DNA of 64,000 nucleotides, from NCBI GenBank assembly GCA_029907205.1, contig JARYMI010000004.1:115776-179775 (forward strand). Reading direction: 5' to 3'. Under the pieces are notes generated by a model. That model was not told the origin of the DNA. It made no database searches and saw only the letters and a list, made by a program, of their open reading frames with translations. Both the position numbers and the translations under genes were made by a program. Origin of the DNA: Clostridiales bacterium (GTDB taxonomy: Bacteria > Acidobacteriota > Aminicenantia > Aminicenantales > UBA8522). This document shows, piece after piece, positions 29,931-35,905 of this stretch (positions within the stretch are counted from its first letter, which is position 1; each line of letters begins with the position of its first letter).

Positions 29931-31085
29931 ATGATCAAGGCGAAACCAGAGGATTTCGTCGTCGAGGAAAGAGCGAACCTTCGCCTCCAGCCCCGGGGAC
30001 AGCACCGAGTCTACCTTCTTAAAAAATCGCACTGGAACACGCTCGACCTGATTCGTTTTCTATCCCACTCCCTCTCCCTGCCTCTCGATAAGTTCTCTTA
30101 CGGCGGGAAGAAAGACAGGCATGGTCTGACGCATCAGTTCATCGCCATCCAGGATCAAGCCGACTTCAGCCGCGAGGGAAAAGATTTCGCCCTTGAGTCT
30201 CGGGGCTTCATGGACCGGCCCATGAGTCCCGATCTCATCACGGGCAATGCGTTCACGGTGACGATAAGAGACTTCGAGGACTTAATACCGGTAGAAAAAA
30301 ACGTCGAGGAGGTCAAAAAAACGGGCTTCCCTAATTTTTTTGACGACCAGAGGTTCCGGAGTTATGACCCCGAAAGAGGCTTTTTTGCCGAGAAGATACT
30401 CCGGCGCCACTGGAACGGGGCGCTCCAGGTTTTTCTGACCAGCACAGGGGCTGAGGACGGAAAGAAAGAACGCGAACGGAGAGAGGCCATTTATAGAGAC
30501 TGGAAGAATTGGCGAGCCTGCCTGGATCACGCTATAAATCCGTTAGAAAAAAAGATTTTCAGCTTTCTAAACAACCATCCGAAGGGTTTTTTCAGGGCCC
30601 TGCATCTGATTCCGGCGGAGGAAGTCTCGATGTTTTTCTCCGCCTTCCAGTCGCACCTCTGGAACGAAGTTCTCCGCAGAGTCATCAAGCTCAAAATTGG
30701 TGATGTCGAGGAAATCATGGGTACTGAGGGGAGCTATCTTTTCTGGACGAAGCTGGATGAAGATCTCCTCTCCTACTTGAACAGCCTTGAAATCCCCACG
30801 GCCGCCGTGAAGACGGACTTCTCTGATGCCTTCACCCGCTCTCTTAATGAAGAGATACTGCGAGAAAAAAACCTCCAGCCGAGTTTCTTCCGGACGAAGG
30901 CGCTCCGTAAGGTTTATTTCCGCTCGTTCAGACGAAAAGCCCTGCTTATCCCCGACGACCTCCGCGTTATCGCGGAAGGAGAGGATGAGTTCCATCCAGA
31001 CAGGAAGAAACTCACCCTGTCGTTTTTCCTCCCCCGCGGAGCCTATGGAACCATGCTTATCAAAAGGATTTCCTTAGAAACGTGA
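29931..31085 (+). CDS. truD: tRNA pseudouridine(13) synthase TruD
   Basis: PEDFVVEE, FSYGGKKDRHGLTHQFIAI and FFSAFQSHLWNEVLRR are TruD motifs. Confidence 0.88.
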   Translation: MIKAKPEDFVVEERANLRLQPRGQHRVYLLKKSHWNTLDLIRFLSHSLSLPLDKFSYGGKKDRHGLTHQFIAIQDQADFSREGKDFALESRGFMDRPMSPDLITGNAFTVTIRDFEDLIPVEKNVEEVKKTGFPNFFDDQRFRSYDPERGFFAEKILRRHWNGALQVFLTSTGAEDGKKERERREAIYRDWKNWRACLDHAINPLEKKIFSFLNNHPKGFFRALHLIPAEEVSMFFSAFQSHLWNEVLRRVIKLKIGDVEEIMGTEGSYLFWTKLDEDLLSYLNSLEIPTAAVKTDFSDAFTRSLNEEILREKNLQPSFFRTKALRKVYFRSFRRKALLIPDDLRVIAEGEDEFHPDRKKLTLSFFLPRGAYGTMLIKRISLET

Positions 31086-33811: not shown

Positions 33812-33958
33812 GGCTCACCGTCCTTGTTAGTTCAAGCTGGCGCGGCCTACTATAGAAATTCTTTCCCCTCTTGTCAATAAAAAACATTGGCCTTCTTATT
33901 GAATGTTCAAATGTCCGGCGTTGACACGGGCGCTTCTCCGGTCATATAGTGTGGACCG

Positions 33959-35905
33959 ATGCAGATAGAACGTGAGGCCGGCCCTGAGATCATCCTTGCT
34001 TCCCGGTCGCCGCGACGGCAAGAGCTCCTGAGGAAAATCGTCACCCGCTTCCGGGTTGTCCCGAGCCAGGTGGACGAAGAGAACTTCTGGGAACAGGACC
34101 CGGTTCGCTTCGCCATTCATGCTGCCGAAGCCAAAGCGCGGGATGTGGCCGAGAAATTCCCGCGAGCACTCGTCCTTGGCGCAGATACTCTCGTCTGCCT
34201 GGGAAAGGAAATCCTCGGCAAGCCGAAAGACAGGCTTGACGCCAGGCAGATGATCAAAAAACTTTCCGGACAGAGGCACCGCGTGATTACCGCCGTCGCC
34301 CTTTATAAAAAGGACGAAGACAGGCTCCTCTCCGATTACGAGATCAGCCATGTCCGCTTCAAGCCATTAACCGATGAAGAGATCGAAAGCTATCTTGCGG
34401 CCGGCGAGTTCGCTGACAAAGCCGGAAGTTACGCCATTCAAAAGGTCGGGGATGCCTTCGTCGAAAAACTCGAGGGCGACTACGACAATGTCGTCGGCCT
34501 TCCCGTTAAGAGAGTCAAGAGGCTGCTGGCCGAGTTCTTGAGCCAGGAGCATTCCGCTACTATCACGGATATCGCTTTCCCGAACGACTGGGGTGTGGCC
34601 ACGATAGACAAAGCGGTCACTTTTGTCCCCGGAACTATCGTCGGCGATAAAGTCAGGATAAGAATCGTACGGAAAAAGAAAAAGCACTTTTTCGGCCGAG
34701 TGATCAACTTCACTTCTCGTTCACCTTTTCGGGTGGAGCCAGAATGTCCCCATTTCGGCGAGTGCGGCGGCTGCGCCTTCCAGAACCTGGCTTATTCCAA
34801 GCAGCTCGAGCTCAAGGAGAACTATCTTCTCCGAACCCTCAAGAGAATCGGGAAAATCGAAGCAACCGGGCTGGAAAAAGAGCCCATCATCCCTTCGCCG
34901 GATATCTATTTCTACAGGAACAAGATGGAGTTTGCCTTCGGAGGAGAAGGCCGCCGCGTCTTTCTTGGCCTTCGCCAGCGCACTTCTCCTCTGGCAAAAG
35001 GCGAAAGAAGCACTGTAGAGCTCAAAAAATGCCCTATCTTCAGCCCCGCTTTTGAAGAGATTTTTCCTTTTGTTGCGAGCTTTGCTAATGAGACAGGACT
35101 CCCCGCCTACGACCCGGACCGCCGAGAAGGCTATTTCCGGAATCTCGTTTTGAGAGAAGGAAAAGCAAGCGGCGATATCCTCGCTATCCTGGTGACGAAG
35201 AGCGGCCGGAAGCCGGAAGTCTGGCGGCTCGCCGAGACGTTAGAACGCCGGTTCTCCCTGCTGAAAAGCTTCTGGTGGGTGGAAACAGACCGGGTTTCCG
35301 ATGTCGTCGATTTCTCCGCGAAAAAGCTCATCTCCGGCAAGAAATTCATCGAGGATTCTATGGGAGGGTTTCGGTTTCGCATCTACCCTGAATCCTTCTT
35401 CCAGCCTAACCCGAGGGCAGCGGAGATTCTCTACAGCAAGATTGCAGCCGAAGCAAAAGCCAGAGGAAGCCGGAAAGTCCTGGGTCTTTACTGCGGGCCG
35501 GGGTCAATCGAAATTTTCCTATCGCGGACCGTAGACGAAGTCGTCGGCGTCGATTCTGAGCCGACGAACATCACGACGGCCGTGGAAAACTGCCGAGCGA
35601 ACGGCATCCCTAACTGCCGCTTTATCGAAGGCCGCGTCGAGCTGGTTCTCAAGAAGGACGATTTCCGCAGCTTTGACCTCGTTGTGCTCGACCCTCCCCG
35701 GGCTGGAATCAGCGCCAAAGGACTTAAACACATCATCTCCCTGAACATTCCGGCCATCTTTTATGTCTCTTGTAACCCGGCTGCCCTGGCCCGCGACCTA
35801 AGCCTTTTTGCCCAGCAAGGTTACAGGCTCCAGAAGCTCTCCATCTTCGACTTTTTCCCTCACACGCCTCATCTTGAGTCGCTAGCCATCATCGCCAGAG
35901 ACTGA
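33959..35905 (+). CDS. Fusion: Maf nucleotide pyrophosphatase + TRAM/TrmA-RlmD-type [4Fe-4S] RNA (uracil-C5)-methyltransferase
   Basis: Maf: ILASRSPRRQELLRK, LGADTLV, ADKAGSYAIQ, GDYDNVVGLPV; TRAM: ITDIAFPNDWGVATIDKAVTFVPGTIVGDKVRIRIV; Fe-S: CPHFGECGGCAFQ...KKCPIF; MTase: GLYCGPGSIEIF, LDPPRAG, YVSCNPAALARDL. Confidence 0.93.
   Translation: MQIEREAGPEIILASRSPRRQELLRKIVTRFRVVPSQVDEENFWEQDPVRFAIHAAEAKARDVAEKFPRALVLGADTLVCLGKEILGKPKDRLDARQMIKKLSGQRHRVITAVALYKKDEDRLLSDYEISHVRFKPLTDEEIESYLAAGEFADKAGSYAIQKVGDAFVEKLEGDYDNVVGLPVKRVKRLLAEFLSQEHSATITDIAFPNDWGVATIDKAVTFVPGTIVGDKVRIRIVRKKKKHFFGRVINFTSRSPFRVEPECPHFGECGGCAFQNLAYSKQLELKENYLLRTLKRIGKIEATGLEKEPIIPSPDIYFYRNKMEFAFGGEGRRVFLGLRQRTSPLAKGERSTVELKKCPIFSPAFEEIFPFVASFANETGLPAYDPDRREGYFRNLVLREGKASGDILAILVTKSGRKPEVWRLAETLERRFSLLKSFWWVETDRVSDVVDFSAKKLISGKKFIEDSMGGFRFRIYPESFFQPNPRAAEILYSKIAAEAKARGSRKVLGLYCGPGSIEIFLSRTVDEVVGVDSEPTNITTAVENCRANGIPNCRFIEGRVELVLKKDDFRSFDLVVLDPPRAGISAKGLKHIISLNIPAIFYVSCNPAALARDLSLFAQQGYRLQKLSIFDFFPHTPHLESLAIIARD

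Follow-up and report, generated by a model that had tools for sequence, protein, structure and literature searches.

The window, by which is meant here the whole stretch of 64,000 nucleotides that was analysed, carries on its forward strand a gene that joins a Maf domain to a TRAM domain and an RlmD-type methyltransferase for 5-methyluridine (m5U). The gene, its parts and the site ahead of it are as follows.

33921-33950, forward strand: promoter-like site, TTGACA-18-TATAGT (consensus scan, 11/12 matches)
33959-35905, forward strand: Maf-TRAM-RlmD fusion gene, 648 aa (coding 33959-35902, stop 35903-35905)
33986-34537, forward strand: Maf domain of the YhdE subfamily, residues 10-193 (Pfam PF02545 and signature residues)
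34538-34546, forward strand: junction, residues 194-196, no linker (AlphaFold2 secondary structure)
34547-34720, forward strand: TRAM domain, residues ~197-254 (Pfam PF01938 199-248; model strands 197-253)
34727-35899, forward strand: RlmD-type m5U methyltransferase region, residues 257-647 (TIGR00479, Foldseek)
34745-34774, forward strand: three [4Fe-4S] cysteines, C263, C269 and C272 (CPHFGECGGC), invariant in 33 fusions
35030-35032, forward strand: fourth [4Fe-4S] cysteine, C358, invariant in 33 fusions
35771-35773, forward strand: catalytic Cys605 (SCNP motif), invariant in 33 fusions
35876-35878, forward strand: catalytic-base Glu640 (HTPHLE motif), invariant in 33 fusions

The original prediction, which was of one uninterrupted 648-aa frame combining Maf, TRAM and an RlmD/TrmA-type methyltransferase, is borne out: the single ORF has zero internal stops, Pfam and NCBIfam matches place all three parts in the one protein, and every motif that had been quoted is found in its translation. 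Full-length homologues, ~46-64% identical, occur as open frames in dozens of independent assemblies (MAGs) from two phyla. Misassembly or a frameshift at ~34555, the event that the prediction had named as its possible undoing, is therefore excluded, and with no point found in its favour, the reading of the fusion as an assembly or frameshift artefact has a practically negligible chance of being right.

The N-terminal half is matched by the Pfam Maf profile over residues 10-193, covering profile positions 1-187 of 187 at 204 bits against a cut-off of 27. Residue numbering was transferred by alignment to E. coli YhdE, in which the Maf signature S-R-E-K-D-K comprises Ser10, Arg13, Glu33, Lys52, Asp70 and Lys82; the YhdE subfamily is further marked by R-T-Q (Arg12, Thr71 and Gln153), and the YceF subfamily by W-Q-E (PMC3899018). 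The corresponding signature residues in the fusion protein are S17, R20, E40, K59, D76 and K88, and the subfamily motif is R-T-Q (R19, T77 and Q161), not W-Q-E; all nine positions are invariant in 33 aligned fusions. The YhdE-type assignment thus holds, and the mutated catalytic residues that would have told against it are nowhere seen.

Within the C-terminal half, residues 199-248 match TRAM (PF01938; 24 bits against a cut-off of 21), residues 212-640 match the NCBIfam RlmD/RumA equivalog TIGR00479 (312 bits against 183.55) and residues 470-644 match Pfam tRNA_U5-meth_tr; the stricter RlmD model NF009639 is not reached (224 bits against 458). The SAM motif LYCGPG is present, and the four cysteines, the glutamine of the FFQxN motif (Q482), C605 and E640 are invariant in the 33 fusions, so that the cysteine cluster and methyltransferase motifs are as complete as had been claimed. 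The roles of these residues, i.e., cluster binding by C263, C269, C272 and C358, the part of Q482, C605 as nucleophile and E640 as base, we take to be those of their counterparts in E. coli RlmD. Candidate targets would be U1939 or U747 of 23S rRNA and U54 of tRNA; sequence alone does not choose among them, and the fold is nearest the dual-target RlmCD.

With the 33 aligned fusions as input, AlphaFold2 gives a confident model (mean pLDDT 89.7, pTM 0.75) that consists of two folded halves with no linker between them. Only two residues separate the final helix of Maf (183-194) from the opening strand of TRAM (197-201), and block pLDDT stays at 85-91 across the junction; the Maf/TRAM boundary that had been predicted is thus there, only slightly upstream of the position given for it, at ~34538-34546 and not at 34555. 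By Foldseek against solved structures, with TM-scores taken by target length, the C-terminal half is most like the RNA-bound RlmCD of S. pneumoniae (5zq0; 0.92) and next most like E. coli RumA, and the N-terminal half lies nearest YhdE of E. coli and Maf of B. subtilis (0.91-0.93). Six close pairs were compared by dN/dS (Nei-Gojobori). The methyltransferase half gives 0.09-0.30 in all six, and the Maf half 0.12-0.19 in five, the value for the sixth having been lost to an ambiguous codon; in most pairs the Maf half is constrained as strongly as the methyltransferase half, or more. By these measures, both halves of the fusion are under purifying selection; on alignment, both active sites are intact, and both halves are expected to be enzymatically active. 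Were the Maf half instead catalytically dead, aiding the methyltransferase only in RNA binding or folding, its rigid attachment straight onto the TRAM domain would be readily understood. Yet every catalytic and specificity residue is invariant, both subfamily signatures included, and this, along with the dN/dS values, tells against a dead Maf domain, a reading rejected as very improbable.

A search for the architecture and its taxonomic spread, which the original prediction had proposed, found an open Maf-RlmD frame in 39 of the 94 genomes of the order Aminicenantales in the collection, the named close matches being from Candidatus Aminicenantes and Candidatus Saccharicenans, which place the window in Aminicenantales. 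Three further genomes of the order have cut or partial matches, including one (G371) whose frame runs into the contig end. The fusion is also present in 23 of the 35 genomes of a second small phylum, whose records are labelled Candidatus Omnitrophota at NCBI; one copy there (G424) is cut at a contig end. At a threshold of 1e-95, which would miss badly truncated copies, full fusions were found in none of 82 genomes of the KSB1 phylum and in none of 395 genomes of the phylum of G446. Within Aminicenantales, neither Maf nor the fusion was matched in two families (f4 and f5), and the function is therefore dispensable; an intact stand-alone Maf was not found in the order, except for one divergent protein of 33% identity in genome G010. 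In sampled genomes elsewhere in the class, Maf stands alone, in frames that reach 347 aa at most, and in none of these outgroups was it seen adjoining RlmD. For want of any such pair in them, the idea that the fusion arose from an ancestral maf-rlmD operon was rejected. Other Maf fusions in Acidobacteriota were considered and set aside, since the long frames represent stop-free read-through 5' of the Maf start, with short tails after Maf; this applies to the 10 genomes with the longest frames among the matches listed and to two with frames of 376-386 aa, in DNA of 63-73% GC.

Two copies deserve separate mention. The bin from which the window derives holds a second full fusion, 60% identical, on a 17-kb contig (G000 contig C68, L125:5634-7550), where gene order is as in the relatives G001 and G003 and where GC content and tetranucleotide profile deviate from the rest of the genome; it may be bin contamination, with a paralogue or transfer as the other options, and no conclusion here draws on it. 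The fusion on G011:C451 (L015, L041 and L128) is interrupted by one in-frame TAG near residue 585, which is either a sequencing error or decay.

A partner change was encountered in two genomes of one genus (G010 and G044; family f2, genus g9), in which a DusB-like tRNA-dihydrouridine synthase (Dus) carries Maf at its C-terminal end.

L143:4869-6545, reverse strand: Dus-Maf gene of G044
L144:5014-6684, reverse strand: Dus-Maf gene of G010

The Maf of these proteins is 56-60% identical to that in the window and, by sequence and alignment, retains its signature residues. The Dus part scores 171-175 bits with Pfam Dus, its best NCBIfam model is DusB, just under the cut-off, and its cysteine, lysine and histidine align with those of the T. 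maritima structure 1vhn. The two parts are connected by a linker of ~25 aa with pLDDT <50, taken from a model of low quality (pLDDT 67.6, 10 sequences) that served for the linker only. The Maf-RlmD fusion was not found in G010 or G044, and the Dus of other Aminicenantales genomes has no Maf attached. Judging by the sequences, the same Maf lineage has been swapped to a different uridine modifier in this one genus.

A tree of Maf domains sets the stand-alone Mafs apart from a single clade (SH-aLRT 99) that contains the fused Mafs and, nested among them, the two Dus-Mafs, and in a tree of methyltransferases all fused rows lie on one side of a branch (SH-aLRT 100); both trees came from short tree searches. 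Pairwise identities of the Maf half correlate with those of the methyltransferase half (r 0.91). The pattern agrees with a single joining, after which both halves descended together, and presence in two phyla would reflect either an early date for the fusion or transfer between phyla. Eleven genomes of the G446 phylum (L217-L227) carry stand-alone RlmDs whose identity to the methyltransferase half of the fusion is 42-49%; these are far nearer to it than other stand-alone RlmDs are, and they are placed next to or within the fusion clade. Fission of a fusion as their source was rejected. The Mafs of the same genomes are only 36-41% identical to the fused Maf, and a fusion-only clade is not rejected (AU p 0.74; the constrained tree is better by 15.7 log units), so that the 11 stand-alone RlmDs look like a sister group. 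They may represent a pre-fusion lineage or a transfer.

These same trees bear on what is the main rival to a functional coupling, namely that the protein is bifunctional and nothing more: its halves would have been joined once by chance and inherited because both activities are useful, with Maf acting on the general UTP/dTTP pool. Since the trees fit a single origin, wide occurrence would amount to inheritance, plus perhaps one inter-phylum transfer, and not to repeated selection; in addition, sampled class outgroups have Maf alone, not beside RlmD. It tells against such an accident that this Maf lineage was later fused a second time, once again to a uridine-modifying RNA enzyme, though this is only one further event. 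The joined state has also been kept through deep divergence, in an order with no intact stand-alone Maf bar the 33%-identity one. On balance, a chance joining is a real possibility but a somewhat doubtful one.

Gene context has also been considered. In the window, the -10 hexamer of the forward promoter-like site ends 8 nt 5' of the fusion ATG, a spacing that suggests a fusion mRNA that is leaderless or nearly so. A divergent promoter-like site, also with 11/12 consensus matches, lies at 33877-33849 on the reverse strand and would drive the POT transporter gene. Two genes separate the fusion from truD, the gene for the TruD pseudouridine synthase, which precedes it on the same strand (29931-31085, forward strand). 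Five Saccharicenans-like genomes have, immediately 5' of the fusion, a phosphoribosyltransferase gene that we read as pyrE-like, Pfam giving only a general phosphoribosyltransferase domain; its stop codon and the fusion ATG overlap as ATGA.

L135:4442-5032, forward strand: pyrE-like gene
L138:4429-5019, forward strand: pyrE-like gene
L045:4408-4998, forward strand: pyrE-like gene
L048:4345-4998, forward strand: pyrE-like gene
L140:6975-7565, reverse strand: pyrE-like gene

On the 3' side, the Saccharicenans-like genomes have a ferritin-like gene, truD (two genes downstream) and ispD. Among relatives in family f1, a glycosyltransferase-2 gene ends a few bases 5' of the fusion; some genomes of the second phylum have a radical-SAM gene that overlaps the fusion start. 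Neighbours differ between groups, and gene context is therefore not constant. The overlap with a pyrE-like gene would sit well with a Maf half that regulates the pyrimidine pool or growth, lowering UTP and dTTP and so coupling the maturation of ribosomes or tRNA to the supply of pyrimidines or to an arrest of cell division; likewise, YhdE increases UMP and dTMP levels in vivo, and Mafs first became known as division inhibitors (PMC3899018). The overlap was, however, seen in only one genus-level group, its place being taken elsewhere by a glycosyltransferase, a radical SAM enzyme or none, and the RlmD half gives no hint of a regulatory role. A regulator of this kind is thus unlikely.

What, then, might the fusion be for? 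YhdE-type Mafs hydrolyse UTP, dTTP, CTP, m5UTP and pseudo-UTP, and the kcat/KM of E. coli YhdE is 5.7e5 on m5UTP vs 2.2e5 on UTP (PMC3899018). For Mafs, a house-cleaning role has been proposed in which the modified NMPs released as modified RNA breaks down are rephosphorylated, and Maf bars the resulting triphosphates from new RNA (PMC3899018, Tchigvintsev et al. 2013). In vivo, the substrates of YhdE were dTTP and UTP, with modified nucleotides below detection, and no activity on dihydro-UTP is reported in the text of that paper (PMC3899018). Applied to the protein in the window, the C-terminal half, with its TRAM domain, [4Fe-4S] domain and SAM methyltransferase, would write 5-methyluridine into rRNA or tRNA, while the N-terminal Maf would hydrolyse pyrimidine nucleoside triphosphates to monophosphates, its substrates including modified uridine triphosphates that arise from broken-down, rephosphorylated modified RNA. 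Fusion would hold this clean-up in fixed ratio to, and on one molecule with, the uridine modifier. The full-length matches of both halves to curated families speak for clean-up, as does retention of the fusion across an order and in a second phylum, and we infer that the two enzymes were joined for the sake of nucleotide clean-up. The pyrE-like gene at the fusion start in five genomes, with truD close by, points the same way.

The earlier reading tied the fusion to m5U alone. That is probably too narrow, since the same Maf lineage is joined to a dihydrouridine synthase in one genus; because of that move, the link would be to uridine modification in general. Together with the attachment of Maf there at the other end of its partner, by a seemingly flexible linker, this second fusion speaks against a mechanism that is channelled or specific to m5U, and in favour of a broader clean-up of modified uridine nucleotides or of simple co-expression with uridine modifiers. 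With Maf rigidly N-terminal in one case, and C-terminal behind a low-confidence linker in the other, no channel is implied; moreover, m5UTP is formed by a long route of RNA decay and kinases, so that proximity to the writer would bring no obvious kinetic benefit. Going by the models, channelling between the halves would be unlikely. That Maf has had two different uridine modifiers as partners fits the published idea of YhdE-type Mafs removing RNA-derived modified UTPs. Taken together, we give roughly even chances to the reading of the fusion as a bifunctional enzyme, an m5U writer plus a Maf that cleans up modified uridine triphosphates, tied to uridine modification generally. The broader proposal, that in Aminicenantales and a second candidate phylum the YhdE-type Maf is a dedicated, covalent clean-up module of RNA uridine modifiers (for 5-methyl-UTP, dihydro-UTP and pseudo-UTP) that is swapped between modifiers, is put forward tentatively, with doubt slightly outweighing belief.

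The cellular role of Mafs is unsettled, with division arrest, control of dTTP and UTP, and removal of modified nucleotides all in contention. The fusion to an m5U writer and that of the same Maf lineage to Dus constitute independent genomic evidence tying Maf to RNA uridine modification, and suggest a link between writing a uridine modification and clearing away what it leaves behind. The question can be tested with one protein whose two active sites are separately inactivatable, and Dus-Maf raises dihydro-UTP as a candidate Maf substrate. In line with an earlier remark that the architecture was not known to have been described, neither Maf-RlmD nor Dus-Maf was found described in the open-access papers searched; automatic database entries for these architectures may well exist.

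Compared with known systems, the Maf half shares the fold (TM-score 0.93 by target length) and signature residues of YhdE-subfamily Mafs such as E. coli YhdE and B. subtilis Maf (BSU28050), with ~41-42% identity when structurally aligned; those proteins are single-domain, of ~190 aa, whereas the Maf described here is joined to an RNA methyltransferase. With RlmD/RlmCD (TIGR00479), the fusion has in common the TRAM domain, the four cluster cysteines, the SAM motifs, and the catalytic Cys and Glu, but it has an N-terminal Maf where those enzymes have a free TRAM N-terminus. Vertebrate ASMTL, which had been offered as a parallel, is a fair comparison, in that both proteins begin with a YhdE-type Maf and continue with a domain of the methyltransferase class, and a linkage of Maf to methyltransferases had already been noted in eukaryotes (ASMTL) and, as a gene association, in archaea (PMC3899018). 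The methyltransferase of ASMTL is nonetheless unrelated to that of the fusion, being acetylserotonin O-methyltransferase-like, and ASMTL has neither TRAM nor an iron-sulphur RNA methyltransferase; conversely, no Pfam or NCBIfam match to an acetylserotonin O-methyltransferase-like domain was obtained in the fusion protein. Also close is the DusB-like Dus-Maf of G010 and G044, which pairs this Maf lineage with a different enzyme of RNA uridine modification; there, Maf is C-terminal behind a ~25-aa linker and its partner is a flavin reductase, whereas in the window Maf is N-terminal and its partner is a SAM methyltransferase. Both component domains of the fusion are well known, and what would be new is their joining and, with Dus-Maf, the change of partner.
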